From positions 186,001-250,000 of the forward strand of contig NZ_SMGG01000004.1 in NCBI RefSeq assembly GCF_004339245.1: a DNA stretch of 64,000 bases, read 5' to 3'. Made by a program: the position numbers and the translations under genes. The notes under the pieces are model-generated. The model ran no database searches. It worked only from the letters and a program-made list of their open reading frames with translations, and had not been told where the DNA came from. This stretch comes from Seleniivibrio woodruffii. Lineage in GTDB: Bacteria > Chrysiogenota > Deferribacteres > Deferribacterales > Geovibrionaceae. Position 1 is the stretch's first letter. Each line of letters begins with the position of its first letter. Positions 9,343 through 60,820 of this stretch are shown one piece after another.

Positions 9343-9347
9343 AAGTG

Positions 9348-9376
9348 TTGACAAACTCGTAATTTACGAGTAAAAA
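9348..9376 (+). promoter_or_regulatory. Promoter of the CAU tRNA with an internal palindrome
   Basis: TTGACA at 9348-9353, a 17-base spacer, then TAAAAA at 9371-9376; the tRNA begins 14 bases later. The spacer carries an inverted repeat, ACTCGTAA (9355-9362), one base, TTACGAGT (9364-9371). The one-base loop makes an RNA hairpin terminator for rpoD unlikely, so it may be an operator. Confidence 0.6.
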
Positions 9377-9390
9377 CATCAACTCTGCAA

Positions 9391-9464
9391 GGGCCAATAG
9401 CTCAGTTGGCTAGAGCCACCGGCTCATAACCGGTAGGTCGCTGGTTCGAGTCCAGCTTGGCCCA
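9391..9464 (+). tRNA. tRNA with CAU anticodon (probably tRNA-Ile2, possibly elongator tRNA-Met)
   Basis: A 74-nucleotide cloverleaf fits base by base: 7-bp acceptor GGGCCAA/TTGGCCC, D arm GCTC/GAGC, anticodon stem ACCGG/CCGGT with loop CTCATAA (anticodon CAU), variable loop AGGTC, T arm GCTGG TTCGAGT CCAGC and discriminator A. CCA is not encoded. GGGCC at the 5' end and the GGCTCATAACC anticodon arm look more like the lysidine-modified minor tRNA-Ile than elongator Met. Sequence alone does not decide this. Confidence 0.9.
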
Positions 9465-9491
9465 TTCTTTTAAATAAAACGGGAAAGGTAA

Positions 9492-10592: not shown

Positions 10593-10597
10593 GGTAA

Positions 10598-11323
10598 ATG
10601 TTGGAGATAATTTCGCAGCTTATCGAGATTCAGCGTCTGGACAACCTGATAGCCGATGCGGAGGCAAAGCTGGCAGGTCAGCCCGAATATGTTAAGAAGG
10701 CGCAGAACGAGCTTGATAAGGCACAGGCGGCTTTCGACGAGTTCAACAGGAAGTATGAGAAAGATCTCGCCGCCAAAATTCAGGTGGAAGCAGCTTACGA
10801 AGAGGGTAAGGCTCTGCTTGACAAAGCACAGAAAAAACTTCCCGAAGTGAAGAACAACAAGGAATATGAAGCTGTGCTGAAAGAGATGGACACTCTTAAA
10901 AAGAACGTGTATGAGTCAGAGCTCAAACTCATCGAACTGACTGAGGCTGTTGACAAATACAAAGCCGAAAACCAGTCGGTGATCGATCAGCTTGAGAAGA
11001 TGAAACAGGAGCTTGAGTCAACCAGAACCCAGAAGGACGAGGAAAACTCAGAGCTTATCAGCGGACTCTCAGCGGACAAAGCGGCCAGAGAAGTGGCTGT
11101 TAAAGTCGTCAAAAAGCCCATGCTCTCAAAATATGAGAGGATCAGGGATGCGAGAAACAACCTCGCAGTGGTTCGTGTTGAAAACGAAACATGCACCGGA
11201 TGCTGCATAAAAATTCCGCCCCAGCTTTATGTTGAGGTAAAAAAGGATAAAGAGCTTCTCCAGTGCCCCAACTGCCAGCGCTTCCTTTACGCCCTGCCCG
11301 AAGATAATAATGCCGAAAATTGA
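10598..11323 (+). CDS. Coiled-coil protein with C4 zinc ribbon (DUF164/CT398-like)
   Basis: 241 residues. Residues 1-175 are an almost continuous Glu/Lys/Ala-rich helical coiled coil. The C-terminus has a zinc ribbon: CTGC ... CPNCQRF. This is the architecture of the DUF164 (CT398, HP0958-like) family. Members in epsilonproteobacteria and Chlamydia have been linked to flagellar or type III export functions, but in most bacteria the role is unknown. It lies between the NIF3 gene and rnhA and overlaps rnhA by 14 bases, so the three are probably one operon. Confidence 0.85.
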   Translation: MLEIISQLIEIQRLDNLIADAEAKLAGQPEYVKKAQNELDKAQAAFDEFNRKYEKDLAAKIQVEAAYEEGKALLDKAQKKLPEVKNNKEYEAVLKEMDTLKKNVYESELKLIELTEAVDKYKAENQSVIDQLEKMKQELESTRTQKDEENSELISGLSADKAAREVAVKVVKKPMLSKYERIRDARNNLAVVRVENETCTGCCIKIPPQLYVEVKKDKELLQCPNCQRFLYALPEDNNAEN

Positions 11324-35006: not shown

Positions 35007-35573
35007 TCAGATATCTTTGTCAGTCAGCACCAGTTCGGGGGCTTTCGCCTCGACGAACCTTGTTGACGGGTTAAGTTTTGTGAATTTGCCGAACCCTTTG
35101 GGATACTGCACGGCGTTTTTCACCTCGGAAAGCTCAACAATGGTCAGCGCATGGGCGGGACAGCCCTGAACGCAGGCGGGTTTTTCCCCTGAATCGATTC
35201 GCTCGACGCACATGCTGCATTTTTCAGCACGCTGAAGGACAACGTTGTCCTTTGCCGCATGGTAGGGGCAGTTTTCTATGCACTGGCGGCAGTAGATACA
35301 TTTATCGGATGAGTGAACCACTATGCCGTCCTTCTCACGCTTAACGTGTGCCTGAACAGGGCATACCTGAGCGCAGACGGGTTTTTCGCAGTGGTTGCAG
35401 GCGAGTGAATAGAAGGCACGATCCCTGTGGGGATAGTCCTTTGCCTCCAGCGGCTGAAGGTTTCTCCATGCAACGCCGACCTCCTGATGATACTGGTTTT
35501 TGCAGGACATGGCGCATGAGTAGCAGCCTATACATTTTTTGGAATTTACCATAAAGGCGAGCTGTTTTTTCAT
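35007..35573 (-). CDS. 4x[4Fe-4S] electron-transfer subunit (DmsB/PsrB type)
   Basis: 188 residues with sixteen cysteines in four groups: CIGCYSCAMSC, CNHCEKPVCAQVC, CIYCRQCIENC and CSMC...CVQGC. This is the pattern of the DmsB/PsrB/NrfC subunits that carry four 4Fe-4S clusters and wire a molybdopterin catalytic subunit to its electron donor. There is no signal peptide; such subunits are co-exported with the Tat-tagged partner. The gene is 12 bases downstream of the catalytic subunit gene. No NrfD/DmsC-type anchor follows, which is unusual. Confidence 0.92.
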   Translation of the reverse strand: MKKQLAFMVNSKKCIGCYSCAMSCKNQYHQEVGVAWRNLQPLEAKDYPHRDRAFYSLACNHCEKPVCAQVCPVQAHVKREKDGIVVHSSDKCIYCRQCIENCPYHAAKDNVVLQRAEKCSMCVERIDSGEKPACVQGCPAHALTIVELSEVKNAVQYPKGFGKFTKLNPSTRFVEAKAPELVLTDKDI

Positions 35574-35585
35574 TTTGTCCCCCTG

Positions 35586-37850
35586 TTATATCTTCATTAT
35601 GTCGCCGAACTGGTCGTGGATAGCCACGCCGGGGGCACCTGTTTTGAATGTTCCCATGTCGCTGGATGTGTCGTCCACCAGTTCCTGAACGTTGAAGCTG
35701 CTGTCTTTGTACCATGCCTCATACATAAGAAGCACGTCTGCGGCTATGTTGTCCGTTGTTCTGGCCTTGACCTTAACCTCGCCCGTTTTGTTGAACACTC
35801 TGACCATGTCGCCGTCCTTTATGCCCTTTGCCTTGGCAGAGGCGGGGTTGATGTAGACAAGCGGTTCCTTGTTGAACTCCTGCATGTAGTCAAGGTTATT
35901 GAACTGCGAGTGCAGGGCAAACTGGGTGTGGGGCGTAAGGATGCGGAACTTGTTATATGGCTTTCTTCCCTCTTTATATTCGGGTAGAGCCGTGTGTCCG
36001 TATTCTTTGGCAAGATCGGACTTAAATTCGTATTTACCGGAGGGTGTTGCGAATTTTTTGTCGCTCCATGATGCGGAAGAGGACAGAATGGCTTTTTTAG
36101 GGCCGTTTTTCAGCTCTTCCCAGCTTGATATGCCGAAGAATTTGTATATTCCGTCGTTGAACTCCTTCTCCATCCAGACCTTTGTATCGGTTATCTGGGG
36201 GAAGGTGCAGGAGCCCTGAACCTTCGAGTTCATTTTCGCTGAGAGCAAGGCGGCAATTTCGAGGTCGGACTTTGCCTCATACTGGTTCGGGATGGCCTTT
36301 TCGTTTATGCTGAGCCAGTAGTGCCAGTAGGATACGTTGACGGTGTATTCCTCAAAAAGGGTTGTGCAGGGGAGCACTATGTCGGAGTTCTGTACTGTTT
36401 CGTTGAAGAACTGGTCGACAGTTACCACCATTTCAAGCTTGTCGAACGCTTTTTTCATCTTGTTGCGGTCGAAATCCTGCGCAAAGGGGTTTTTGCAGGC
36501 AACCCACAGCAGACGGATGGGAGGCTCGTTAGTCGTGAGGATGGATTCCGCTATCTTGTTGATGTTTATTGTTCTGTCGGAGTATGAAGTCGCTTCGCCT
36601 TCCGCATTGGCAAACTCACTCTTTATCTTGTCCTTGCCGGTGTAGCCTTTTGAGCCTGCGGGCTGTTTCTGAACCATGGCGTTGTAGTTGAAACCCCATG
36701 TGGCAAGATGGCCGTATCTTGCTCCGCCGCCCTCTTTGCCGATGTTTCCTGTGAGAGCCGCAAGTGCGTCGATGGCACGGACGGATGCTCCGCCGTTTGT
36801 GTGCCTCTGCATTCCGTAGCCAATCCAGATCGTTGCGGGGTCTGCCTTTGCGTATTGCTCGGCAACTGTGCGGATGACCTTTTCGCTGACTCCGGAAACT
36901 TTTGCCGCCCACTTAACCGTGACGTTTTTGTCCAGATAAGCCTTGAACTCCTCATATCCTTTTGTGTTGTCTGCGAGGAATTTTTTATCCACCAGACCTT
37001 TTTCAACTATATGCTTCGCCATGCCCAGAGCCAGTGCGCCGTCCTGTCCGGTTTTAACACGGATGTATGTGTCGGCTTTCGCCGCTGTCTGGGTGAGGAC
37101 AGGGTCGATTACGATGAGCTTTGCGCCGTTCTCCTGAGCTTTGTAGATAAACTTCATGGAGTGGACGGAGTTCCATGCGGGGTTTGCGCCCCACACGATG
37201 ATATATTTCGCCTTCACCATGTCTTCGGGGTCGTTGCACCACATGTTGCCCATGTCAAAGTTCTGAGCGTCGATTCCCGCAGGCCAGCAGGGCGTGCCCA
37301 CGAAACGGGTGGTGTAGCCCAGTGAGGAGAACATACCCTCAACTCCGTAGTGGGTTATGCCGAAGTTGCCGGAATATTTATCCAGAGCCATTCCCAGAAG
37401 GGAACCGTCTTTTTTCTGTATCTCAAGTATCTTGTCTGAAATTATGTTCAGTGCTTCGTCCCAGCTTATTCTGCGCCAGTTGCCGCTTCCCCGCTTATCC
37501 TGAATCATGGGATATTTTATCCGGTCGGGGCTGTAGACCCTTCTGGGATAAGAAAAACCTTTAACGCAGAGTGCGCCGTCGGTGAAGGTTGATTCCTTCG
37601 CACCTTCAACAAACTCTATTGCGCCGTCTTTAACGTAGGTTTTGATACTGCATGTGTCATAGCAGTTTCTGGGGCAGGCGTTGCGGAATGTTTTAAGCCC
37701 GCTCTGAAACTTTGTGCGTTCCCATGCCTCGGCTTTGAAAAGCCCTGCGGGAATGGATGCCAGTGCGCCCGCCGCAGCCAGACCTTTCAGTATGTTTCGT
37801 CTGGAAACGGGGCATATTTCCGCAATGTTCTTTTTGCGTTTGCCTTCCAT
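35586..37850 (-). CDS. Tat-exported molybdopterin oxidoreductase, DMSO-reductase family catalytic subunit
   Basis: 754 residues. Twin-arginine signal SRRNILKGLAAAGALA near residues 16-31 sends it folded to the periplasm. An N-terminal 4Fe-4S site is formed by C59, C63, C67 and C95. The Mo region reads VGTPCWPAG, with C188 aligning to the Mo ligand of DmsA-type enzymes by my reading. Cofactor-binding blocks IVWGANPAWN and VIDPVLTQTAAKAD follow, and the C-terminal MopB domain (VYINPASAKAKGIKDGDMVRVFN, shown in part) closes it. The substrate cannot be read from sequence: DMSO, N-oxide, sulfur or selenium oxyanions are all possible. The gene follows a TorD chaperone gene. Confidence 0.9.
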   Translation of the reverse strand: MEGKRKKNIAEICPVSRRNILKGLAAAGALASIPAGLFKAEAWERTKFQSGLKTFRNACPRNCYDTCSIKTYVKDGAIEFVEGAKESTFTDGALCVKGFSYPRRVYSPDRIKYPMIQDKRGSGNWRRISWDEALNIISDKILEIQKKDGSLLGMALDKYSGNFGITHYGVEGMFSSLGYTTRFVGTPCWPAGIDAQNFDMGNMWCNDPEDMVKAKYIIVWGANPAWNSVHSMKFIYKAQENGAKLIVIDPVLTQTAAKADTYIRVKTGQDGALALGMAKHIVEKGLVDKKFLADNTKGYEEFKAYLDKNVTVKWAAKVSGVSEKVIRTVAEQYAKADPATIWIGYGMQRHTNGGASVRAIDALAALTGNIGKEGGGARYGHLATWGFNYNAMVQKQPAGSKGYTGKDKIKSEFANAEGEATSYSDRTININKIAESILTTNEPPIRLLWVACKNPFAQDFDRNKMKKAFDKLEMVVTVDQFFNETVQNSDIVLPCTTLFEEYTVNVSYWHYWLSINEKAIPNQYEAKSDLEIAALLSAKMNSKVQGSCTFPQITDTKVWMEKEFNDGIYKFFGISSWEELKNGPKKAILSSSASWSDKKFATPSGKYEFKSDLAKEYGHTALPEYKEGRKPYNKFRILTPHTQFALHSQFNNLDYMQEFNKEPLVYINPASAKAKGIKDGDMVRVFNKTGEVKVKARTTDNIAADVLLMYEAWYKDSSFNVQELVDDTSSDMGTFKTGAPGVAIHDQFGDIMKI

Positions 37851-37855
37851 AAAAA

Positions 37856-38410
37856 TTATACCTCCTGAGCAATCAGCTCATTCACGGCGGATTTTACCCA
37901 CCGCTTTAAAATAAAAAGCATATACTCCACCGCCGGTGTCTTCTCCTGTCTGTCAGTTTTTTCTAAGAACAGGTGAATCCATTCGTTCAGGTGGTTGCGG
38001 ACAAAATAGCCGTAAACCGATACGGCTTCGTCCGTTACACGGGAAATAAGGATGAGATAGCGGCATGCGTCAAGCTCCATTGGGAGGCTGTCTTCGGGGA
38101 TGGATGTATCCTCCGGCAGTTCCAGCCCTATCAGCTGATAGATATCCCTGACGCATTTTGTGGTCTGACCGTTATAGGCGCCGTCCTCCTCCAGATAGAA
38201 GGATGCGACAATGGGGGCAAGGGGCGATGCGGGGCCTACGAACAGCCTGTTGAAGCAATACTGCTCCTCTGCCCAGTCTGTTTCGGCCGTTGTGTCGCCG
38301 TTCAGCGAGCATAATTGTTCATATGCCCTCTGCATTCTGTCCTGCGTTCCGAAATAAAAGAAGTCACGCAGGTACTCAAGCACTTTCGGGGTATTCTCTG
38401 CGTTATACAT
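37856..38410 (-). CDS. TorD/DmsD-family chaperone
   Basis: 184 residues, all-helical. Features of the TorD family: FNRLFVGPASPLAPIVASFYLEED (matching the Y-x-R-L-F-x-G-P.. block), the E-L-P-x-D segment, and a C-terminal helix with NHLNEWIHLFLEK (matching D-H-x-x-x-x-L). These chaperones bind the Tat signal of the molybdoenzyme and hold it for cofactor insertion before export. It is the first gene of a leftward operon with the catalytic subunit 5 bases downstream, which strongly supports a dedicated chaperone role. Confidence 0.88.
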   Translation of the reverse strand: MYNAENTPKVLEYLRDFFYFGTQDRMQRAYEQLCSLNGDTTAETDWAEEQYCFNRLFVGPASPLAPIVASFYLEEDGAYNGQTTKCVRDIYQLIGLELPEDTSIPEDSLPMELDACRYLILISRVTDEAVSVYGYFVRNHLNEWIHLFLEKTDRQEKTPAVEYMLFILKRWVKSAVNELIAQEV

Positions 38411-38603: not shown

Positions 38604-40253
38604 TCAGGTGTTGGTGAGGAAAGAGAAAAGATTCAGATCTTTGCCGCTCAGCCCCAGTTTTTTGCGTATGTTCTTGCGGTGGGTCTGGACTGTTTCGAAA
38701 GATATGTTCATCATGTCGCCTATCTCCTTGCTGCTGTGGCCGGACTGGATAAGCTGGCATACCTGAATTTCGGATTTGCTGAGTTTCATGAGGCTTGCAC
38801 TGTTTGCAGCGTCTATCCCCGTCAGGGACGAGAGCTGTTCCTTCAGCATATTTGCGTACATCTTGCGTATCTCTATGTTGTCTTCGGCGGTTATCTTCTG
38901 GAGTGAGGGCATTATCTGGGTGGTGACACGCTGTGCGATGCTCCTTTCCATCTCCTCTTTCTCCTTGCCGATTGTCTTCATCACATTGCGCAGGGTAACG
39001 TTCATTTCCTCCGCCAGAGCCTTTTCCTTGAGAATGTTCTCCTCCATCTGCTTCTGATGGGTTATGTCCCTCACTATAAGATGCAGATACGGCTCATCGC
39101 CCAAAGTCAGCCTGCTGATGGTTATGCTGGCGGGGAATGTGCTGTTCTGGGTGGTCATGCAGAAGGTCTCAATTGTTCCCGTCTCGTGGTCTGCGAAACT
39201 GTGCTTGATGGCTCTCAGTCCTTCAGGGTGAAATACCTTCGAACAGTTTATGCCGGAAAGGCCTATGGATCCGAATCCGAACATCTCGTCCGCCCGCTCG
39301 TTGGACTGGGTCACGGAGAGGTTGCGGTCGGCAAGGATTATGCCTTCGCCCGCACTGCTGAAAAGTGAGCGGAAAAGGTTCTCGGACTTTGCCAGTGCCG
39401 CTGTGCGTTCACCGACCAGCTGTTCCAGCTTTGCCCGCTGTTCGACAATGCAGGTTATGTCGTTCATGATTATCACATATCCGGCTGATGCCAGAGAGAC
39501 TTTTTTCAGCGGCACAATGCCGATGGTCACTATTGAAGAGAGGTTCGGCAGGCGCAGTTCGTTCTGGCTGTGGGCGGGATACCTTTCTAAAAGCTCCTCC
39601 ATCGGCATGGGCTGAATCCCAAGAGTCGGCCAGACGGCGGAATTTATGGCATTTTTTCCGAATCGTTCCTCTGCGGACTGGTTCATCTCCAGAATCTGCC
39701 CTTCGGAATCGGTAACCAGAACCATGTCGGAGGTGGCCTGAAAGATGTTTTCATATTTGTTTTTCGCCAGCGTCAGGATACGGTCGGTCTTTTCCAGCAT
39801 CTTCACTTTTTCATCTCTGGACTGGCTGTCCCATTTTGCAATGGTTATGGATTCGATGCTGTCGAGGAGCCTGCGGAAATCTATGTAGAGTTTCAGTTTT
39901 TCATCAGAGGGAAGAGGGGATGTGAGGATTATGTCATCCAGAGAGTGTATCAGTGTCTTGAAACAGCCGAAGAACATTTCGGCGGTGATGCCTCTGGCCT
40001 TGTGGCGCTCGGCCATCATTATGAGGCTGTCTGCCATGTCCCTGCTGTTTTTCATGATATATGAGAAGTCCACGGGTTTTCCTTCCGCCAGATGCTTCTT
40101 CATGGGGTCGATAACGCCGTGCAGACTGCGTATGCAGTCGTCTCTTTTCGCTGTTGTGTGTTCAAGGTAGCCTGCGGCCTCCATGTGGCGTGTCCAGCCG
40201 CTCAGGAAGGCCTCCATCTCCCGGATAAAACCGTCTAATAAATCTGTCAGCAT
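38604..40253 (-). CDS. PAS-domain regulator with LuxR-type DNA-binding domain
   Basis: 549 residues from the ATG at 40253, chosen because AGAGGA stands 5-6 bases upstream. Residues 1-170 are helical, then a PAS domain (about 175-275, MVLVTDSEGQILEMNQSAEERFG), a coiled coil, a second PAS (about 295-400, GIILADRNLSVTQSNERADEMFG), another coiled coil, and a C-terminal LuxR/NarL helix-turn-helix (LSKSEIQVCQLIQSGHSSKEIG ... FETVQTHRKNIRKKLGL, shown in part). There is no receiver domain or membrane segment, so it is a one-component cytosolic sensor. It lies directly upstream of the torD operon and is a good candidate regulator of it. Confidence 0.85.
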   Translation of the reverse strand: MLTDLLDGFIREMEAFLSGWTRHMEAAGYLEHTTAKRDDCIRSLHGVIDPMKKHLAEGKPVDFSYIMKNSRDMADSLIMMAERHKARGITAEMFFGCFKTLIHSLDDIILTSPLPSDEKLKLYIDFRRLLDSIESITIAKWDSQSRDEKVKMLEKTDRILTLAKNKYENIFQATSDMVLVTDSEGQILEMNQSAEERFGKNAINSAVWPTLGIQPMPMEELLERYPAHSQNELRLPNLSSIVTIGIVPLKKVSLASAGYVIIMNDITCIVEQRAKLEQLVGERTAALAKSENLFRSLFSSAGEGIILADRNLSVTQSNERADEMFGFGSIGLSGINCSKVFHPEGLRAIKHSFADHETGTIETFCMTTQNSTFPASITISRLTLGDEPYLHLIVRDITHQKQMEENILKEKALAEEMNVTLRNVMKTIGKEKEEMERSIAQRVTTQIMPSLQKITAEDNIEIRKMYANMLKEQLSSLTGIDAANSASLMKLSKSEIQVCQLIQSGHSSKEIGDMMNISFETVQTHRKNIRKKLGLSGKDLNLFSFLTNT

Positions 40254-40328
40254 CGTTTCCTCTGAATTTATAATAGCATAACACCGATCCGGCAATTATC
40301 AACATTAAAAGGATTTTATCTTATACCG

Positions 40329-46246: not shown

Positions 46247-46312
46247 ATGATAAATGGGTTAGCATATGCACCATAGTAAAAGCAATAATATAATGAAAAA
46301 GAGTAAAATTCG

Positions 46313-51119: not shown

Positions 51120-51517
51120 TTTATTATCATTCTCCATTTTCACTTGCCAAATAACATCTGTTAAATTCCGAGCATATGCCATATTGAACATAATTCATTT
51201 ATTCGATTATTTTAATATTTTTATTTTCTTTAATATCAAAAATTAAGCCTTAGTTATCATTCGGGTCTGAAAATTTTTTTTCGCAGGATTGTTGGAAAAA
51301 ATGTAATAATTCGTCAATTATTGTGAATAAGTCCGTTATGGTATTAATATAAAACAATAGTAATTAGCGGTATTATCTTGTTTACGCTCAAAACCTCTGT
51401 AAACTTTCTTTAAGAATAGTCATCTTGTCCTGTTTTAATTCTTCGTTATGAACCACTTAATAAATCAAAAGAAATTGTTTGGAATGCGTGTTGATAGTGG
51501 CAAATGCTAAAAATCCC
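51120..51517. promoter_or_regulatory. AT-rich gap upstream of the first psr-like operon with two CATATGCC-type sites
   Basis: About 400 bases with no gene. AGCATATGCC at 51171-51180 and GGCAAATGCT at 51499-51508 match the palindrome TGGCATATGCCA found at the regulator gene and the second operon. The second site is centred about 50 bases upstream of the predicted transcription start. No terminator for bioB is clear. Confidence 0.55.
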
Positions 51518-51546
51518 TTGCTTAAATGTATGAAAATCTGTATATT
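51518..51546 (+). promoter_or_regulatory. Promoter of the first psr-like operon
   Basis: TTGCTT at 51518-51523, 17-base spacer, TATATT at 51541-51546. The ribosome site AGGAGG is at 51611-51616, so the leader is about 70 bases. Confidence 0.6.
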
Positions 51547-51623
51547 GTGTACTGTATACATAGAAATGTATGAATAGTATCGATAAAATATTGATGTTGT
51601 TGCAAAATTCAGGAGGTTCCCCT

Positions 51624-53936
51624 ATGACGCTTTCCGGTATGAATATCAGCCGCAGAAAGTTCCTTGCCGCCTCCGGAGGTGCTGTGGCCGCAGGACTGGT
51701 AGCTGCCAACCTGTCCACTATCAAAGCTGTTGCAAGCGCCCCCTCAAAAGAAGCCGGCAAAGGAGAAAAGCACATAGCTTCAAGCTGTGAGATGTGCGTC
51801 AACAAATGCGGTTTTTTTGCTCATGTCGTTGACGGCAGGCTTAAAAAACTTAACCCCAACCCCAAGTTCTTTAAAAGCCGCGCCATGCTCTGTGCCAGAG
51901 GAAACGCAGGAGCAGAAGAACCCTATAACCCCGAAAGACTCACAAAACCCCTTCTGCGTGTAGGCGAAAGAGGGGAGGGCAAGTGGAAAGAGATATCCTA
52001 TGAGGAGGCTTTCAGACTCGTTGCCGAGAAACTGAAAGAGTTCAAGGTTAAGAACGAGAACAGATGTTCCGTCGCCTTTGCATCCTCAGAAGGTTTTCAG
52101 GAGGAGATTTTCCAGTATCTCGTGCAGTCCTATGGTTCAACAAACACAGTGCGCCACCCCACCCTGTGTCTGTCGTCCGTTATTCAGGGCTGGTCTTCGG
52201 TTTACGGGGTATATCCTGATGCCGACCTCAAAAATTCAAAATTTGTCCTTATGTTCGGTGCCAACAGGGCGGAAGCCATCGTTACACCCGACACTATAGA
52301 CTTTGTGAAATATAAGCCCGCAGGCTCAAAACTTATCTATCTGGATCCCCGCTTCACAAACACGGCGGCAAAAGCCGACAAGTGGTTCCCCGTTAAACCC
52401 GGCACAGACCTTGCGTTCGTGCTTGGCCTTATAAACGTGATAATCACCGAAAATCTTTATGATGCGGCGTTTGTTGAGCAGTTCTGCGACGGTTTCGCCG
52501 ACCTGCAGGCTATGATAGCTCCCCACACACCCGAATGGGCGGAGAAGGAGTGCGAAATTCCCGCAGCCGAGATACGCTGGACAGCCAGAGAGTTTGCCAA
52601 GGCCGCACCCGCTGCCGTTGCATACCCTGGCAGACGTACCAGCTGGTATGTGAACGACGTATATTTCCGCCGTGCCTGCGCAATCCTGACGGCCATCTGC
52701 GGATGCTGGGATGCTCCCGGCGGAATCTGCCCTAAGGCGTCAGTACCCGTTAAAAACCTCGACCCGCTTTTCCCTTATTTCGAAATGACTGACGACCGTA
52801 TCGATGCGGCCTCAAGCGTTAAGAACAATCTGCCCAAGGACAAAAGGTCTGAGAATATGCCCACGGATTCTGTGGCGTATCTGGGAGAAAAGGACGGAAG
52901 CTGGCTGAGATTCAGAGATGCCATCATCGCTCAGGATCCTTATCCTGTGGAGGCGATGATAGTCTATAAGCAGAACTTCATCGAGGCAGTGCCCAACCGT
53001 GCCAAGACAATGGAGATGCTTAAAAAGATCAAATTCATGGCCGTTATAGATATCCAGATGACCGAAGTCGCATACTTTGCCGACCTCGTCATTCCCGAAT
53101 CAACCTATCTTGAGCGTTGGGACTCTGTCCACAACCTCGCAGGTATCTGGCCCATCGCAACTTTCCGTCAGCCTGTGGTTGAGCCTGTTTTCGGCACCAA
53201 GTCAATGTTTGAGATAGCCGGCGGAATCATCAACGAAATGCTGAAACTGCCCGAACTCTGGGACGATGCCGATCCTATGGAAGTGGAAGATTTCAAATAT
53301 GACGTGGTTGAGGATATCTTTGCTCAGCCTATGCAGGAATACATCAAGCGTCAGCTTGCCGACCATCCCGGTGCGTATGAGCAGATGATGAAGGACGGCG
53401 TTTTCTATCTTTCCGACGAGCCTAAATACGGAACCACCCGCAATCCTGAGTTTCGTTTCAAGACAAGAACAGGAAAGATAGAGCTTGCCAACGTTAAGTA
53501 TGCAGACAAGGGCTTAAGCCCTCTGCCGATATACGTTGCTCCCCGTCAGCCTGAGCCGGGTAAATATCGTATGATCCTCGGCCGCCACGGGTTCAACACC
53601 CACACCGGCACACAGAACAACGAATATCTCTGGGAGATCCAGAAAGAGAACGAAATCTGGATCAACACGGCAGAAGCCAAGAAACTGGGCGTTGTTTCCG
53701 GTGACTATGTAAAGGTTGCAAGCTCTGTGGGAGAGCAGACCATAAAGGTTTTCGCCACCGAAAGGATACGCAAAGACTGCGTTTTCTTCGCCCACGGCTT
53801 CGGACGCCTTTCTCCTCAGCTCAGCCTTGTTTATAAAAAAGGCGCATCACAGGCGGCCATCCTTGAGGACTATCTTGAGCCTATCTCGGGCAACGCCGCA
53901 ATGCACGAAACTTTCGTGACAATTACAAAGGCATAA
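51624..53936 (+). CDS. Psr/Phs/Srr-type molybdopterin oxidoreductase, catalytic subunit (copy 1)
   Basis: 770 residues from ATG 51624, with AGGAGG eight bases upstream. The Tat signal is ISRRKFLAASGGAVAAGL. A 4Fe-4S site (SCEMCVNKCGF ... AMLCARG) precedes the Mo domain. The candidate Mo ligand is C182 in RHPTLCLSS, a Cys, as in polysulfide, thiosulfate, selenite and arsenate reductases. Family blocks FVLMFGANRAEAI and YLDPRFTNTAAKADKWFPVKPGTDLAF (shown in part) bind the guanine cofactors, and the C-terminal domain ends FFAHGFGRLSPQLSL and a conserved ISGNAAMHETFV. The enzyme acts in the periplasm. The exact substrate is not readable. Its paralogue follows at 56750. Confidence 0.93.
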   Translation: MTLSGMNISRRKFLAASGGAVAAGLVAANLSTIKAVASAPSKEAGKGEKHIASSCEMCVNKCGFFAHVVDGRLKKLNPNPKFFKSRAMLCARGNAGAEEPYNPERLTKPLLRVGERGEGKWKEISYEEAFRLVAEKLKEFKVKNENRCSVAFASSEGFQEEIFQYLVQSYGSTNTVRHPTLCLSSVIQGWSSVYGVYPDADLKNSKFVLMFGANRAEAIVTPDTIDFVKYKPAGSKLIYLDPRFTNTAAKADKWFPVKPGTDLAFVLGLINVIITENLYDAAFVEQFCDGFADLQAMIAPHTPEWAEKECEIPAAEIRWTAREFAKAAPAAVAYPGRRTSWYVNDVYFRRACAILTAICGCWDAPGGICPKASVPVKNLDPLFPYFEMTDDRIDAASSVKNNLPKDKRSENMPTDSVAYLGEKDGSWLRFRDAIIAQDPYPVEAMIVYKQNFIEAVPNRAKTMEMLKKIKFMAVIDIQMTEVAYFADLVIPESTYLERWDSVHNLAGIWPIATFRQPVVEPVFGTKSMFEIAGGIINEMLKLPELWDDADPMEVEDFKYDVVEDIFAQPMQEYIKRQLADHPGAYEQMMKDGVFYLSDEPKYGTTRNPEFRFKTRTGKIELANVKYADKGLSPLPIYVAPRQPEPGKYRMILGRHGFNTHTGTQNNEYLWEIQKENEIWINTAEAKKLGVVSGDYVKVASSVGEQTIKVFATERIRKDCVFFAHGFGRLSPQLSLVYKKGASQAAILEDYLEPISGNAAMHETFVTITKA

Positions 53937-53948
53937 GGGGAGGCGGAC

Positions 53949-54503
53949 ATGAGTAACAAAAAATACGGCATAGTTCTGAATGCCAAAAATTGCCTTAACT
54001 GCAAGGCATGTACAGTGGCCTGCAAGTTTGAAAACCATGTGGAGCCCGAAAGCGAGCAATACAGGATCTGGGTTGCCGAGAAGGAGCTGAAAGGCACTTT
54101 CCCAAAGCTCCGTCTGGATTTTGAACCCTCACAGTGTCAGCACTGCGAGAACACACCCTGCGCCAGCGTGTGCCCCACCAGCGCGACCTACAAAACCGCA
54201 GAGGGTGTGGTTCTTATCGACTATAAAAAATGCATCATCTGCAAAGCCTGCATGACTGCATGTCCCTATGACGCAAGGTTTGTCAGCGAGGTCAACCATG
54301 CCATTGAAAAGTGCACCTTCTGCTACCACAGGCTGCCCGAAGGCAGAGAGCCTGCATGCGTGGAGACCTGCCCCACAAAGGTAAGGGTGTTCGGCGACCT
54401 GAACGACCCTGAGTCAAAGGCATCGAAACTGCTTGCAGAGAACGATTCTTATCAGCTTAAGCCTGAGAAGAACACCAGACCCAGACTTTTTTACATCAGG
54501 TAA
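53949..54503 (+). CDS. 4x[4Fe-4S] electron-transfer subunit (PsrB type, copy 1)
   Basis: 184 residues with sixteen cysteines in four groups: CLNCKACTVAC, CQHCENTPCASVC, CIICKACMTAC and CTFC...CVETC. It transfers electrons from the membrane subunit to the molybdoenzyme. No signal peptide; it is expected to be exported with the Tat-tagged partner. It begins 12 bases after the catalytic gene and is 16 bases before the membrane-subunit gene, with a GGGGAGG site. Confidence 0.95.
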   Translation: MSNKKYGIVLNAKNCLNCKACTVACKFENHVEPESEQYRIWVAEKELKGTFPKLRLDFEPSQCQHCENTPCASVCPTSATYKTAEGVVLIDYKKCIICKACMTACPYDARFVSEVNHAIEKCTFCYHRLPEGREPACVETCPTKVRVFGDLNDPESKASKLLAENDSYQLKPEKNTRPRLFYIR

Positions 54504-54519
54504 GGACGGAGGAAAAAAA

Positions 54520-55749
54520 ATGTCAGCTCACGATACTGAAACTGAAGTTAAAGAGGGTTTGATATCAACCCTTAAAGGTTTGATAACCTTTAATAAAGAC
54601 ATCCCCGTAATGCCGCTTATCATCATAGGTCTGGTTCTTGCGGGAATAGGCGCCGTCACTGCGGTGGTGGTGCTTGTAAAAGGTCACGAGGCCATGTACG
54701 CCGTTAACCGTGAGGTTCCGTGGGGAATGCTCATCGGCACCTATGCATACTTTGTTATAACATCCACCGGACTGGCTTTCATCGGCGGTCTCGGCCATGC
54801 ATTCGGATTTGAGAATTTTGCCAAGATAGGCAGACGCATAGTTGTGCTCGCCACACTGGTTCTGCTGGCAGGTTTCACTCAGATTCTTATGGAACTGGGA
54901 CACCCCGTCCGTATGATCATCTGGATGATGCTCTCTCCCAATATCACAGCTCCTATCCTCTGGATGGGCGTGTTCTACACGATAGAGCTTGTGATCCTCG
55001 GATTTGAGCTTTACTACGCTTTTAAAGCCCATCCCACTGCAAAAGACCATCAGACTGCCGCAATGCTCGGCTTTGCCGCCATGGTTGTGGGTACCCTTGC
55101 AACATCGAACCTCGGATTCGTGTTCGGTTCGCTGAATGCTCGTCCCTGGCTCTATGGCGTACATTTCCCGCTGTTTCTTGTTGTTTCCGGTATAACTGCC
55201 GGTGCGGCTCTTCTGCTTCTGGTGCATAACATCGCATACAGGTTCAGCATTCCCGAAGAGTACAAACCCTCAATGAACGCCCTTGCGAAACTAATGGGCG
55301 GCGGTATCGGAATAATGATGCTTATGTATCTGTGGAAGTTCCTGACCTCCATATTCACTCAGCCCGAAGGTTCGTATCAGTCTGCAATGGCGCTCATAGC
55401 AGGCCCCCTTGCGGCTAACTTCTGGATAGGCGAGATGCTTCTTGCGGTCATAATTCCCCTTGTCCTTCTGCTCACTGCAAAAGGGGATACTAAGAAGTAC
55501 GGAATCGCAGGCCTTGTGTTCATGATTGGTCTGTATTTCACAAGGGTTAACTACATTGTTGCGGGTCAGCTTCCCGTTATGCGTCAGGCTACCGACGGTT
55601 CCGGCGTAACAGCGGACATCAACGGTTTGGCCTTCTATTCGCCCTCGATAGCTGAGTGGGGGATATTCCTTCTGGGAATAGGAACTGCAATGGTGCTGTA
55701 TTTCAGCGCAGAAAAGTTCCTTGATCTCAAAACTCCCGATCATCACTGA
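54520..55749 (+). CDS. NrfD/PsrC-type membrane subunit (copy 1)
   Basis: 409 residues from ATG 54520 (GGAGGA seven bases upstream); a longer frame overlapping the ferredoxin gene is not needed. At least eight hydrophobic segments are visible. Family features are REVPWGMLIGTYAYFVITSTG near the N-terminus (the VPWG..I..Y.FF..S.. pattern), HPVRMI, FTLWMGVFY-type helices and NYIVAGQ near the C-terminus. NrfD proteins oxidise quinol and pass electrons to the Fe-S subunit. There is no haem. It is the last gene of the operon, followed by a strong terminator. Confidence 0.93.
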   Translation: MSAHDTETEVKEGLISTLKGLITFNKDIPVMPLIIIGLVLAGIGAVTAVVVLVKGHEAMYAVNREVPWGMLIGTYAYFVITSTGLAFIGGLGHAFGFENFAKIGRRIVVLATLVLLAGFTQILMELGHPVRMIIWMMLSPNITAPILWMGVFYTIELVILGFELYYAFKAHPTAKDHQTAAMLGFAAMVVGTLATSNLGFVFGSLNARPWLYGVHFPLFLVVSGITAGAALLLLVHNIAYRFSIPEEYKPSMNALAKLMGGGIGIMMLMYLWKFLTSIFTQPEGSYQSAMALIAGPLAANFWIGEMLLAVIIPLVLLLTAKGDTKKYGIAGLVFMIGLYFTRVNYIVAGQLPVMRQATDGSGVTADINGLAFYSPSIAEWGIFLLGIGTAMVLYFSAEKFLDLKTPDHH

Positions 55750-55761
55750 TATCACATTGCA

Positions 55762-55788
55762 AAAGGCGGCCACTGTGCCGCCTTTTTT
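55762..55788 (+). terminator. Intrinsic terminator of the first psr-like operon
   Basis: AAAGGCGGC (55762-55770) pairs with GCCGCCTTT (55777-55785), followed by T's to 55788. It ends transcription 13 bases after the stop codon. Confidence 0.9.
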
Positions 55789-55904
55789 GTTTCAGTGACC
55801 ATCCTTAGTCTGTAATTCCGCATAATCTTTAAAATCTATAGAATCTCTCATCACTTTAGTGCTATGATAGTCTGACTTAAGATAGACAAACAGTACAGGT
55901 TTTG

Positions 55905-55916
55905 TGGCATATGCCA
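55905..55916. promoter_or_regulatory. Palindrome TGGCATATGCCA upstream of the DUF134 regulator gene
   Basis: A perfect 12-base palindrome at 55905-55916. It lies about 125 bases upstream of the predicted start of the regulator mRNA and resembles the sites at both psr-like operons. I propose it as the operator of the regulator; this is inference. Confidence 0.6.
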
Positions 55917-56001
55917 ACCTGAGCGATGTTCAGGACTTGTTGGTTTTGGGCTGATATGGTTTTGGTAATTGGCTCAAAATAAAATAGCGTTATATAATTA
56001 A

Positions 56002-56030
56002 TTGACGAATGCCAATATGGGTATTATAAT
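56002..56030 (+). promoter_or_regulatory. Strong promoter of the DUF134 regulator gene
   Basis: TTGACG at 56002-56007, exactly 17 bases, then a perfect TATAAT at 56025-56030. GAGG at 56049-56052 precedes the ATG at 56059. The spacer holds AATGCCAATA, another partial copy of the palindrome half. Confidence 0.75.
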
Positions 56031-56058
56031 TTCAGAATAACACATCAGAGGATTTAAT

Positions 56059-56517
56059 ATGGCCCGCCCGGTAAAAAAGAGGCTTGTGAAACACAGGCTG
56101 ACATTCAAAGATTTCGGCCCTGTGGCCGTTCCCGAAAATCAGAACTGCAAGATAATAAACATACCTGTGGATCAGCTGGAGGCAATGCGTCTGGCGGATC
56201 TTGAGGGAATGTCGCACAACGAGGCGGCAGACCTTATGGGTGTTTCCCGCCAGACCTTCGGCCGCATAATCGAACAGGCCAGACAGTCGGTCACTCTGGC
56301 GCTGATAAACGGCTATGTCCTTAAGATAGTATATGACGAGAACGTTCAGATATGCGACAGAGACCTGAAATGCATTGAATGCGGGCATGAGTGGTGCCAC
56401 GGTTTCAACGAGACCGCCGAGGCCACAACCTGCGAAAAGTGCGGCTCTCTGGAGATAATCAAAATGAAGCGCTGCGGTAAATACTGCGAGTGCCCCCTTC
56501 GTGTAAACAAACGCTGA
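56059..56517 (+). CDS. DUF134/UPF0251-family DNA-binding regulator with nine-cysteine tail
   Basis: 152 residues. The N-terminal part is the UPF0251 family: MARPVKKR, VDQLEAMRLADLEGMSHNEAADLMGVSRQTFGRIIEQAR (shown in part), whose helix-turn-helix resembles sigma region 4. The tail after residue 95 is unusual: CDRDLKCIECGHEWC, CEKC and CGKYCEC give nine cysteines, enough for one or more zinc or iron-sulfur sites. It probably senses metal, redox state or a chalcogen compound and controls the two flanking respiratory operons. It has its own strong promoter. The family's ligand is not known to me. Confidence 0.85.
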   Translation: MARPVKKRLVKHRLTFKDFGPVAVPENQNCKIINIPVDQLEAMRLADLEGMSHNEAADLMGVSRQTFGRIIEQARQSVTLALINGYVLKIVYDENVQICDRDLKCIECGHEWCHGFNETAEATTCEKCGSLEIIKMKRCGKYCECPLRVNKR

Positions 56518-56576
56518 TACTCCGTTATCCCTTCGTTATTATAGTCTGACCGTATTTCTGCGATCATTTTTAAATT

Positions 56577-56655
56577 GAGCAAATGCCATAAACTAAATAT
56601 TCAATTATTTTTGTATATTGCTGAATGAATAATTATTGGCATATGCCATAAACTA
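56577..56655. promoter_or_regulatory. Two direct-repeat operator candidates upstream of the second psr-like operon
   Basis: GAGCAAATGCCATAAACTA at 56577-56595 and TGGCATATGCCATAAACTA at 56637-56655 share 16 of 19 bases and are exactly 60 bases apart, about six helical turns. They are centred about 73 and 133 bases upstream of the predicted start site, a distance that fits an activator. Confidence 0.65.
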
Positions 56656-56678
56656 CTGATGTGTAAAAAGAAATTTCG

Positions 56679-56707
56679 TTGACCTATTCTTAGTTATATC
56701 TTAATAT
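56679..56707 (+). promoter_or_regulatory. Promoter of the second psr-like operon
   Basis: TTGACC at 56679-56684, 17-base spacer, TAATAT at 56702-56707; GGAGGT follows at about 56737 before the ATG at 56750. Confidence 0.55.
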
Positions 56708-56749
56708 CTGCATATCTAGTTTCATCTACCTTTATCGGAGGTCAGTATT

Positions 56750-59074
56750 ATGTCAATGTTCAGTCCTAAGCTGTCACGGCGCCGTTTCCTTGCCGTTGGC
56801 GGTTCTGTTGCGGCTGCTGCGGCTCTCGGCTCAGGCCTTAAAGCTGTCAAGGCTGTTGCGGATGTTCAGGAGACGAAGAAGGTTGCAGGTGTTTCAAAGC
56901 ATATAGCGTCCAGCTGTGAAATGTGCGTGAACAAATGCGGCCTTATAGCCCACGTCGTTGACGGCAGGGTTAAAAAACTGAATCCCAATCCAAAGTTTTT
57001 CAAAAGCCGTGCGATGCTTTGCGCCAGAGGCAACGCCGGAGCGGAGGAGCCTTATAACCCCGAAAGGCTCACAAAACCCCTTGTCCGTGTGGGCGAAAGA
57101 GGGGAGGGCAAGTGGAAAGAGATATCATATGAGGAGGCATACGTTCTCCTCGCCAAGAAACTTGCGGAACACAAAGTTAAAAACGACAACAGAAACTCTG
57201 TGGCTTTCATCTCTTCCGAAGGATTTCAGGAGGAGATATTCCACTATCTTGTCCAGTCATACGGTTCCACAAACACAGTGCGCCACCCCACCCTGTGTCT
57301 GTCGTCCGTTATTCAGGGCTGGTCATCCGTATATGGAGTGTATCCGGATGCTGACATCAGAAACTCAAAATTCGTCCTTATGTTCGGTTCGAACAGGGCG
57401 GAAGCGATAATCACCCCCGACACAATAGATTTTCAGAAGAACAAGCCTGAGGGGCAGAAGGTTGTATACCTCGACCCCAGATTTACGAATATGGCGGCAA
57501 AGGCCGACAAGTGGTATCCCGTTAAACCCGGAACAGACCTTGCGTTCATCCTTGGCGTTATAAACGTGATAATCACTGAAAACCTTTATGATGCGGCATT
57601 CGTTGAGCAGTTCTGTGACGGATTCGCAGATCTTCAGGCGATGATAGTTCCCTATACCCCCGAATGGGCGGAGAAGGAATGCGAAATTCCCGCCGCCGAG
57701 ATCCGCTGGGTCGCAAAGGAGTATGCCAAAGCCGCTCCCGCTGCCGTGGTCTATCCCGGCAGAAGAACGAGCTGGTATGTCAACGACGTATATTTCCGCC
57801 GTGCCTGCGCGATCCTTACGGCAATCTGCGGATGCTGGGATGTTCCCGGTGGAATCTGCCCCAAGGCGTCGGTTCCCGTTAAAAACCTTGACCCGCTCTT
57901 TCCCTATTTCGAAAAGACGGACGACCGTATCGATCAGGCATCTTACGGCAGTGTGAAGAACAGAATGCCTAAGGACGCACGCTCCGCCGCTTTGCCCGCC
58001 GCAGAGGTGGCTTACATGGGCGAAAAGGACGGAAGCTGGCTCAGGTTCAGGGATTCAGTTCTGGCGGAAGATCCTTATAAGGTCGACGCACTTGTTGTCT
58101 ATAAGCAGAACTTCATAGAGGCGGTTCCCAACCGAGCCAAAACTATGGAGATGCTGAAAAAGATAGACTTCATGGCCGTTATAGATATTCAGATGACAGA
58201 AGTTGCATATTTTGCCGACCTTGTTATTCCTGAATCAACCTATCTTGAGCGTTGGGACTCTGTTCACAACCTCGCAGGAATCCAGCCCATCGCAACCTTC
58301 CGTCAGCCTGCAATAGAGCCTGTGTTCGGCACAAAGTCCATGTTTGAGATAGCGGGAGGGGTCATCAATGAAATGCTGAAACTCCCTGAGCTGTGGGACG
58401 ATGCCGATCCCGAAGAGGTTGAGGATTTCAAGCTGGATGTGGTTGAGGATATCTTCGCTCAGCCCATGCAGGAATACATTAAGCGTCAGCTGGCTGATCA
58501 GCCGGGCGCATATGAAATGATGATGAAGGACGGAGTTTTCTATCTGAAAGAAGAGGCCACCTACGGCAGTACACGCACCAATCCTGAGTTCAGGTTCAAG
58601 ACCAGAACCGGAAAGATTGAGCTTGCCAACGTTAAGTATGCGGAAAAAGGCCTGCATTCTCTGCCTCTGTACGAAAGACCCCGTCAGCCTGAGGCCGGAA
58701 AATACCGCTTCATCCTCGGCCGCCACGGGTACAACACTCACACAGGAACCCAGAACAACGGATTCCTCTGGGAAATTCAGAAAGAGAACCAACTCTGGAT
58801 AAACACAGAAGAGGCAAAGAAACTCGGCATAGCCACAGGCGACTATGTAAAGGTTACAAGCGCAGTTGGTGAGCAGACCGTAATGGTCTACGCCACCGAG
58901 AAGATACGCAGAGACTGCGTGTTCTATGCCCACGGCTACGGACGCCTCTCACCCCAGCTCAGTCTGGTCTATAAAAAGGGAGCCTCTCAGGCGGCCATCC
59001 TTGAGGACTATATAGAGCCTATCTCTGGCAATTCGGCGATGCACGAAACGTTCGTAAGCATCGCAAAGGCTTAA
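56750..59074 (+). CDS. Psr/Phs/Srr-type molybdopterin oxidoreductase, catalytic subunit (copy 2)
   Basis: 774 residues with the Tat signal SRRRFLAVGGSVAAAAALG. The same features as copy 1: SCEMCVNKCGLI ... AMLCARG iron-sulfur site, candidate Mo ligand C183 in RHPTLCLSS, FVLMFGSNRAEAI and YLDPRFTNMAAKADKWY. It is highly similar to copy 1 along its whole length, with most differences in the signal, the region around 400-425 and the 600-660 surface loops. One 56-base stretch around the ligand is identical in DNA. Whether it serves a different substrate, or the same one under other conditions, is open. No TorD gene is near either copy. Confidence 0.93.
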   Translation: MSMFSPKLSRRRFLAVGGSVAAAAALGSGLKAVKAVADVQETKKVAGVSKHIASSCEMCVNKCGLIAHVVDGRVKKLNPNPKFFKSRAMLCARGNAGAEEPYNPERLTKPLVRVGERGEGKWKEISYEEAYVLLAKKLAEHKVKNDNRNSVAFISSEGFQEEIFHYLVQSYGSTNTVRHPTLCLSSVIQGWSSVYGVYPDADIRNSKFVLMFGSNRAEAIITPDTIDFQKNKPEGQKVVYLDPRFTNMAAKADKWYPVKPGTDLAFILGVINVIITENLYDAAFVEQFCDGFADLQAMIVPYTPEWAEKECEIPAAEIRWVAKEYAKAAPAAVVYPGRRTSWYVNDVYFRRACAILTAICGCWDVPGGICPKASVPVKNLDPLFPYFEKTDDRIDQASYGSVKNRMPKDARSAALPAAEVAYMGEKDGSWLRFRDSVLAEDPYKVDALVVYKQNFIEAVPNRAKTMEMLKKIDFMAVIDIQMTEVAYFADLVIPESTYLERWDSVHNLAGIQPIATFRQPAIEPVFGTKSMFEIAGGVINEMLKLPELWDDADPEEVEDFKLDVVEDIFAQPMQEYIKRQLADQPGAYEMMMKDGVFYLKEEATYGSTRTNPEFRFKTRTGKIELANVKYAEKGLHSLPLYERPRQPEAGKYRFILGRHGYNTHTGTQNNGFLWEIQKENQLWINTEEAKKLGIATGDYVKVTSAVGEQTVMVYATEKIRRDCVFYAHGYGRLSPQLSLVYKKGASQAAILEDYIEPISGNSAMHETFVSIAKA

Positions 59075-59087
59075 CGGAGGGCGACAG

Positions 59088-59636
59088 ATGAAAAAATACG
59101 CAATTGTATTTGATACAAAAAAATGTCTGAACTGCAAGGCCTGCACAGTTGCCTGCAAGTTCGAAAACCACGTTGAGGTGGGCGACGATCAGTACAGGAT
59201 ATGGGTTAACGAACTTCCCCTTAAAGGAAAGTTTCCGAACCTCGCCCAGAGCTATCTGCCCTCCCAGTGTCAGCAGTGTGAAAATCCTCCCTGCGTCCAT
59301 GTGTGCCCCACAAAGGCCTCATATCAGACGGCGGACGGTGTTGTGCTTGTTGACAGCAAAAAATGCATACTCTGCAAATACTGCATGACCGCATGCCCCT
59401 ATGATGCAAGGTTTGAGAACCATCTGATAAAGGCGGTTGACAAATGCACCTTCTGCTACCACAGACTGCCCGAAGGCAAACCTACGGCATGCGTTGAAAC
59501 CTGTCCCACAAAGGTCAGGGTGTTCGTCGATCTTGAAGATCAGAACGACGAGACGGTAAAACAGCTCGCTTTGGCCGACTACGATGTTCTTAAGCCCGAA
59601 AAGGGAACCAAGCCGAAGCTCTACTATTTAAGATAA
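59088..59636 (+). CDS. 4x[4Fe-4S] electron-transfer subunit (PsrB type, copy 2)
   Basis: 182 residues, sixteen cysteines in the pattern CLNCKACTVAC, CQQCENPPCVHVC, CILCKYCMTAC and CTFC...CVETC, matching copy 1 closely. It starts 13 bases after the catalytic gene with a GGAGG site, and 11 bases separate it from the membrane-subunit gene. Confidence 0.95.
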   Translation: MKKYAIVFDTKKCLNCKACTVACKFENHVEVGDDQYRIWVNELPLKGKFPNLAQSYLPSQCQQCENPPCVHVCPTKASYQTADGVVLVDSKKCILCKYCMTACPYDARFENHLIKAVDKCTFCYHRLPEGKPTACVETCPTKVRVFVDLEDQNDETVKQLALADYDVLKPEKGTKPKLYYLR

Positions 59637-59647
59637 GGAGGACAGCA

Positions 59648-60820
59648 ATGTCGGAAAATACCGAAGCGGTAAAATGCAGTTCAGATATGTTCTGCGGCAA
59701 CAGAAGCATCCCCATGCCGCTGATAATAGTCCTTGCGGCGTTCAGCCTTGTTGGGCTTTACGGCGTGGGAAACATCCTGATAAACGGTCATGCCTCTTCT
59801 CTGGGAGTTACCAGAAGCGTTCCGTGGGGACTGCTCATCTCCACATATGTGTTTTTTGTGGTCTCCAGCACCGGACTCTGCCTTATATCATCAATGGGGC
59901 ACGTTTTCGGCATAGAGAAATATGAGGTCATCGGCAAAAGAGCCATCGTCCTTGCAATCCTGACCCTTCTCTGCGGTTTCGGAGTGATAGGGATGGAGGT
60001 GGGGCACCCTCTGCGCATGGCCATCTATAACGTTATATCGCCCAACCTGACCTCCGCCATATGGTGGATGGGTACGCTCTACAGCGTTTACATGGTCTGC
60101 ATCATCATTGAGTTCTACTTCCTGATGAAGCATAACCACAAGGGAGCTTTCTATGCAGGACTGGCGGGCTTCATAGCGGGGATCTCCGCCCACTCGAACC
60201 TCGGTGCGGTGTTCGGATTCCTTGAGGCCAGACCCTTCTGGCACGGCCCCTATCTGCCGATATACTTCATCCTTTCGGCACTGATATCGGGTACTGCGCT
60301 CATTATAATCATAATGAACATAGCCTACGGCGGCCCCTCAAAACTCAGCGAAAAGGCGAAGAATGCGGTTCTGAGCCTCTCAAAGCTGTTCGGTCTGCTG
60401 TTGGGAATAATAATCTTCTTTGATATCTGGAAGATAATAACCTCTCTCTACGGCACTCCGCCTGAGAAGTACGAAACGGTGATGACCCTTATAGCCGGGC
60501 CTCTTTCGGTGAACTTCTGGCTGTTCGAGGTGCTGATAGGTATGCTGATCCCCTTCGGACTTATACTGTTCTCAAAGGGAAACAGTGTGAAAAAAGCTCT
60601 CATGGCGGCTTGTTTCGCAGTGGTGGGTATCTTCTTCATGCGCTATGACCTTGTGGTTGCGGGACAGCTTGTTCCCATGCGCAATGCCGAGGATTTCGCC
60701 GGCGGACTGGCGAGCTATGCCCCCAGCTTCTCTGAGATAAGCATTGTGGCAGGCGCTATACTGCTCTGCTGTGCGCTGTTTCTTGCGGCTGAGAGATATC
60801 TGAATCTGTCTGAGGAGTAA
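59648..60820 (+). CDS. NrfD/PsrC-type membrane subunit (copy 2)
   Basis: 390 residues with many hydrophobic segments. It shares TRSVPWGLLISTYVFFVVSSTG (shown in part) and the HPLRMA, IWWMGTLYS and DLVVAGQ features with copy 1, but diverges more than the other two subunits. As the quinol-oxidising anchor it may set the electron donor of this copy. It ends the operon; the terminator is about 200 bases downstream, after repeats. Confidence 0.92.
   Translation: MSENTEAVKCSSDMFCGNRSIPMPLIIVLAAFSLVGLYGVGNILINGHASSLGVTRSVPWGLLISTYVFFVVSSTGLCLISSMGHVFGIEKYEVIGKRAIVLAILTLLCGFGVIGMEVGHPLRMAIYNVISPNLTSAIWWMGTLYSVYMVCIIIEFYFLMKHNHKGAFYAGLAGFIAGISAHSNLGAVFGFLEARPFWHGPYLPIYFILSALISGTALIIIIMNIAYGGPSKLSEKAKNAVLSLSKLFGLLLGIIIFFDIWKIITSLYGTPPEKYETVMTLIAGPLSVNFWLFEVLIGMLIPFGLILFSKGNSVKKALMAACFAVVGIFFMRYDLVVAGQLVPMRNAEDFAGGLASYAPSFSEISIVAGAILLCCALFLAAERYLNLSEE

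Follow-up and report, generated by a model that had tools for sequence, protein, structure and literature searches.

In Seleniivibrio woodruffii, a gene of the DUF134/UPF0251 family (PF02001) stands between two respiratory operons in the 64,000-nucleotide stretch analysed here (contig NZ_SMGG01000004.1 of assembly GCF_004339245.1, positions 186,001 to 250,000), referred to below as the window. Sequence comparisons strongly support binding of a palindromic operator by the DUF134 protein, and control of its own gene and of the downstream operon (operon 2) is well supported, whereas control of the upstream operon (operon 1) is supported only weakly. The first-pass annotation of this window, made by a model from the letters, had proposed that the protein controls itself and both operons. 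For a domain that has no assigned function, the larger result is a predicted family-wide operator together with a recognition code. Taken as a whole, the proposal that a DUF134 dimer reads the palindrome by this code, activates operon 2 and would thereby define a regulon for sulfur respiration is considered very probable.

The proposed regulator gene (56059..56517, + strand) encodes 152 amino acids, scoring 59.9 bits against the PF02001 profile (cut-off 27) and giving an AlphaFold model with a mean pLDDT of 85. Upstream of it lies the perfect palindrome TGGCATATGCCA (55905..55916), present as annotated, and a second perfect copy occupies 56637-56648, upstream of operon 2; separated by 732 base pairs (bp), these are the sole two perfect copies in the genome of 2,906,047 bases. 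The other copies annotated at first pass were likewise found, namely GAGCAAATGCCATAAACTA at 56577 and, 60 bases further on before operon 2, TGGCATATGCCATAAACTA at 56637, two imperfect copies before operon 1 (see below), and a weak relative, AGCATATGCA, at 46261, to which another AGCATATGCA at 26710, within a gene, can be added. The accompanying observation that no full 12-base copy falls inside any gene of the window also holds. The main predicted operator of operon 2, TTATTGGCATATGCCATAAA (56633..56652), is the only window match to the extended family motif TTATNRGCATATGCYNATAA at up to three mismatches (0.09 expected), and a weaker second copy, GAGCAAATGCCA, lies 60 bp upstream of it (56577..56588). 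The looser pattern RGCATATGCY has 27 matches in the genome, approximately nine of them intergenic, including the operon 1 site, and copies with one mismatch are mostly intragenic genome-wide. Taken alone, window matches to the 12-mer with at most two mismatches are not significant (five found vs 2.6 expected); the argument that the palindrome exceeds chance depends on the perfect copies, on conservation in relatives and on DUF134 genes elsewhere.

Beyond this genome, 80 DUF134 loci from genomes of many phyla were compared, 75 of them outside the Deferribacterota. In these 75 loci, the core GCATATGC occurs 27 times in the 55 kilobases (kb) beside DUF134 genes versus eight times in the other 622 kb, and the copies beside DUF134 genes lie mostly 20-50 bp before the start codon, inside a longer palindrome, TTATKRGCATATGCYMATAA. 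Loci devoid of the exact core carry the related palindromes TGCACATATGTGCA, GAACATATGTTC and GAGTATATACTC, and the same outcome was obtained when loci were picked by the Pfam profile instead of by similarity to the window protein. At a shuffle threshold of p ≤ 0.01, a related palindrome of the form TTATnnnCATATGnnnATAA was detected upstream of 85 of 147 non-redundant DUF134 genes, against about 1.5 expected (an approximate figure, based on single-base shuffles). As a control, 12 of 322 neighbouring genes of the same loci carry such a palindrome, a few of which are clear DUF134-type sites themselves. The short DUF134 paralogue of the S. woodruffii genome, whose helix reads SRPTFSR, showed no clear operator at its own gene.

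The bases of these operators vary with the residues of the predicted recognition helix, which begins in the window protein with S63-R64-Q65-T66-F67-G68-R69 (56245..56265, + strand). Among 180 residue-base associations (36 protein positions by five base positions), the strongest were 65/-5, 68/-4, 65/-4 and 69/-6, and the score used for finding sites favours no base at positions -6 to -3. Asn69 is accompanied by T at -6 in 26 of 26 half-sites (TTATT) and Arg69 by G in 126 of 160 (TTATG); Gly68 goes with G at -4 in 108 of 116 (GCATATGC) and Ser/Thr68 with A in 46 of 52 (ACATATGT); and Ser65 goes with C at -5 in 20 of 26, Gly65 with T in nine of ten. Considering that permutation scores ignore the tree, the closest disjoint pairs were also contrasted on a tree built without the helix motif, as a control in which many pairs are distant. 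A difference at residue 68 is accompanied by one at base -4 in all 26 pairs, compared with seven of 44 same-residue pairs, and a difference at residue 69 by one at base -6 in 13 of 14 pairs, compared with five of 36 same-residue pairs. Shared ancestry alone would spread the association over the protein rather than single out three recognition-helix residues. Binding of the palindrome by the DUF134 protein, as the first-pass annotation had suggested, is strongly supported by this covariation and by the palindromes that precede DUF134 genes across phyla.

Within the Deferribacterota, full-length DUF134 orthologues were found in 13 of the 60 relatives searched, and every one adjoins a phsABC-type operon. 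In Denitrovibrio, as in three other families of this order, the DUF134 gene and an operon-2-type phsA have GCATATGC-type sites between them, and in most cases such sites precede the DUF134 gene as well. In one Denitrovibrio locus (L055), phsA (8788-11190) is broken by one in-frame TAG, representing either a broken gene or a sequencing error. The putative operon 2 promoter of the window, TTGACC-N17-TAATAT (56679..56707, + strand), has its -35 box 36 bp from the palindrome centre, a spacing kept in nine related promoters; in all ten Deferribacterota promoters compared, whose catalytic subunits range down to about 55% identity, the centre lies 36-37 bp before a TTGACA-like -35 box with a 17-bp spacer. 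The 15-mer RGCAWWTGCYATAAA has 15 matches in 24 genomes, nine of them at operon 2-type promoters, versus four in all for the reversed control pattern. For the DUF134 gene itself, the putative promoter TTGACG-N17-TATAAT (56002..56030, + strand) contains the half-site ATGCC within its spacer, and a comparable half-site occurs in the same promoter spacer of L055.

Structurally, the best sequence match in the PDB, by profile, is the DNA-binding domain, a homeodomain-like helix-turn-helix, of Bacillus subtilis DeoR (7bhy, E = 2e-5), which superposes on the AlphaFold DUF134 model with 0.7 Å over 38 residues. DeoR, a repressor, recognizes the operator ATTGAACAAAATTTCAATTACCAATTTACATATGTTCAA; a 3.7 Å crystal structure, whose authors urge caution on contacts, shows its R39 in contact with G4 of the TTGAACA half (PMC11229326). 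By alignment, R39 would be the counterpart of DUF134 residue 69, which would fit the pairing of Arg with G in the code. The likeness to the SorC/DeoR subfamily extends to the helix, SRPTVSR in DeoR versus SRQTFGR in the window protein and SRPTFSR in other DUF134 proteins, and to the half-site, TTGAACA versus TTATGAACA; DUF134 proteins with SRPTF[ST]R have GAACATATGTTC. In contrast to those regulators, whose C-terminal 250 or so residues form a sugar-binding effector domain, the 152-residue DUF134 protein has no Pfam match to such a domain and carries a short Cys-rich tail instead. The helix-turn-helix (HTH) fold also superposes within 1 Å over about 50 residues on region 4 of sigma-70 factors of the extracytoplasmic function (ECF) group; unlike these, DUF134 matches region-4-like HTH domains only, with no region 2, and would read a palindrome rather than a -35 box. 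The top whole-model Foldseek matches, MCM and HypA, were low-scoring and were taken to reflect zinc-ribbon similarity rather than homology; only HTH matches were used. Within DUF134/UPF0251, the window protein resembles other members in its Pfam score above the cut-off, its HTH and Cys-rich tail and its upstream palindrome, and differs as a long form that is linked to phsABC and ends in a third Cys group (RCGKxCxCPL). Its tail (residues 105-148) holds CxxC pairs and a terminal RCGKYCECPL; across the family, at least four Cys follow residue 88 in 134 of 194 proteins, usually arranged as a zinc-ribbon-like pair. Outside the phylum, most DUF134 genes have a gene for a MinD-like ATPase with 4Fe-4S motifs downstream; this is the commonest follower in loci L075-L149 of other phyla (47 loci), and the neighbourhood is conserved.

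The association of sites with genes, the covariation of helix and bases and the fixed promoter spacing are all read directly from sequence; dimer binding, activation, sensing and the sulfur substrate are inferred. DUF134 would act as a dimeric HTH transcription factor in which each monomer reads one half of TTATnnnCAT|ATGnnnATAA, with helix residue 69 specifying base -6, residue 65 base -5 and residue 68 base -4. The window protein (SRQTFGR, core GCATATGC) would bind upstream of its own gene, adjusting its expression, and at operon 2, about 71 bp before the predicted transcription start. A site centred near -71 has the geometry of class I activators, as at CRP-type promoters. In ten operon 2 promoters, which are predicted, not mapped, the palindrome precedes the -35 box, keeps a helix-phased distance of 36-37 bp to it and is centred at about -71; on this geometry, DUF134 is proposed to activate operon 2, most likely in the class I manner, the sign of control being deduced. 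The regulon in the Deferribacterota would centre on sulfur-compound respiration: besides operon 2, it would take in a rhodanese operon and perhaps one for a multihaem cytochrome. The zinc-ribbon-like tail, rich in Cys, probably serves in sensing or dimerization, although its role as a sensor is a guess.

Several observations weigh against this proposal. Sites in many other phyla precede the start codon by 20-50 bp, a placement resembling that of repressor sites, and activation cannot therefore be assumed from the family; such a placement points to autorepression, and both modes of control may occur in the family. Palindromes at the DUF134 gene itself are less regular in the Deferribacterota than in other phyla, and several miss p ≤ 0.01. 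In three genus-mates that lack operon 2, the DUF134 gene immediately precedes operon 1 and the palindrome is absent. For the window helix, the code predicts TTATGRGCAT-like halves, whereas the operon 2 halves are TTATTGGCAT/TTTATGGCAT; the core agrees with the code, and the outer bases (TTATTGG/TTTATGG), which are those of the phylum, agree only in part. As a separate observation, diverged DUF134 proteins with the helix ARTTVQQ or similar, in another family of the order (L047-L051), are preceded by TTTATGGCATATGCCATAAA or near variants, and their half-site equals the right half at operon 2.

Two other explanations of the palindrome deserve consideration. DUF134 might bind it and repress both operon 2 and itself, with release by polysulfide, a redox change or a similar signal. 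This would suit the position of the operator in most other phyla, the sites at operon-1-type operons of the relatives G017 and G030, which cover part of the -35 box or stand close to the ribosome-binding site, and the repressor function of the structural relative DeoR (PMC11229326). It is nevertheless rather unlikely: at operon 2 the site precedes the promoter, at about -71, and ten promoters keep the spacing of 36-37 bp, an arrangement that a repressor would not require. Alternatively, a different dimeric regulator could bind the palindrome and have DUF134 among its targets; a linked regulator could in principle own the site, given that DUF134 is assigned as its binder from sequence. The operator bases, however, covary across phyla with residues of DUF134's own recognition helix, and in many loci the site immediately precedes the DUF134 gene and none of its neighbours, which makes such a regulator highly improbable. 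Activation of operon 2 by DUF134 remains the preferred reading.

Operon 2 (56750..60820, + strand) encodes a PhsABC/PsrABC-type complex with a molybdopterin oxidoreductase (56750-59074), a 4Fe-4S protein (59088-59636) and an NrfD membrane subunit (59648-60820), and operon 1 (51624..55749, + strand) is a second set of this type, with genes at 51624-53936, 53949-54503 and 54520-55749. By Pfam, each operon combines molybdopterin, 4Fe-4S and NrfD subunits, the three-subunit layout of PhsABC/PsrABC complexes. In NCBIfam, the catalytic subunits match PhsA of thiosulfate reductase best (502 and 514 bits), yet both fall short of its equivalog cut-off of 694, so that the substrate is not settled.

For operon 1, the part of the first-pass claim that fared least well, the evidence is divided. 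Its two imperfect copies, AGCATATGCC far upstream (51171..51180) and GGCAAATGCT (51499..51508), the latter centred 14 bp before the putative -35 box, are doubtful and not conserved in genus-mates. A different palindrome, TGTGTACTGTATACA, lies at 51546-51560 on the putative -10/start of the operon. In the three genus-mates with operon 1 next to DUF134, where the sites are missing, this GTATAC palindrome is kept as TGTATACCGTATACA. Operon 1 may thus lie outside DUF134 control, with chance or decayed sites and mainly another regulator acting at the TGTGTACTGTATACA palindrome, an explanation that we favour slightly. Against it, the operon-1-type operons of G013, G017, G020 and G030, from two other families, carry GCATATGC-like sites. 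Because the window sites are imperfect and unconserved and another palindrome sits at the start, yet operons of this type elsewhere carry sites, support for DUF134 control of operon 1 is weak. The sequence TTGTATACAATATACA, which resembles TGTGTACTGTATACA, occurs upstream of a rhodanese gene in Denitrovibrio (L056).

Better conserved than operon 1, and a likely further target, is an operon encoding a rhodanese-domain protein, whose paired sites, at around -200 and -20, occur both here and in the genus-mates G003 and G004; a multihaem cytochrome operon is perhaps another candidate. Strong intergenic copies TTTTTAGCATATGCTAAAAA and AATAAGCATATGCCGTTATT (L150 and L159 of the same genome, both near 1505), upstream of genes labelled by eye as SatP-like and CstA-like, are not clearly conserved in relatives, and one CstA-like copy falls in a genome without a long DUF134; these targets are not claimed. 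Also set aside were GCATATGC copies inside coding regions, near the start, of solute-binding-protein genes (L057, L058), copies at a gene end or between convergent genes (L013, L260), and a report on C. difficile Xtr with GCATATGCACCACC, which concerns an XRE protein (PMC13260099). In G012 (L069, about 8455), a Nitro_FeMo-Co gene next to a DUF134 gene has a TTGACA/TATAAT promoter with AGCATATGCC just 3' of it, a repressor-like position. Elsewhere in the window, a gene at 38604-40295 (- strand) encodes a PAS-type protein that, as judged by eye from the translation, ends in a LuxR-like HTH and shows no obvious receiver domain; it adjoins another molybdopterin oxidoreductase set (35007-38410) and possibly regulates that set.

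The first-pass annotation had known of no DUF134 operator of this form, in agreement with a search of titles and abstracts, with most subscription journals outside its scope, in which no description of a DUF134/UPF0251/COG1342 operator was found and operator sequences led only to unrelated papers. On the present results, a domain that occurs in archaea and in many bacterial phyla would gain a role in DNA binding, an operator and a specificity code, and sulfur-compound respiration in the Deferribacterota would gain a candidate regulator that can be tested directly. More tentatively, and as a possibility that we rate somewhat below an even chance, DUF134 proteins may form a widespread group of anaerobic regulators that sense metals or redox state and follow a simple code, of which the Deferribacterota member would activate sulfur-compound respiration, its tail sensing sulfide, polysulfide or redox state. 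The targets of DUF134 would become predictable in uncultured anaerobes, and if the code holds family-wide, operators and regulons could be predicted from sequence for all DUF134 proteins.

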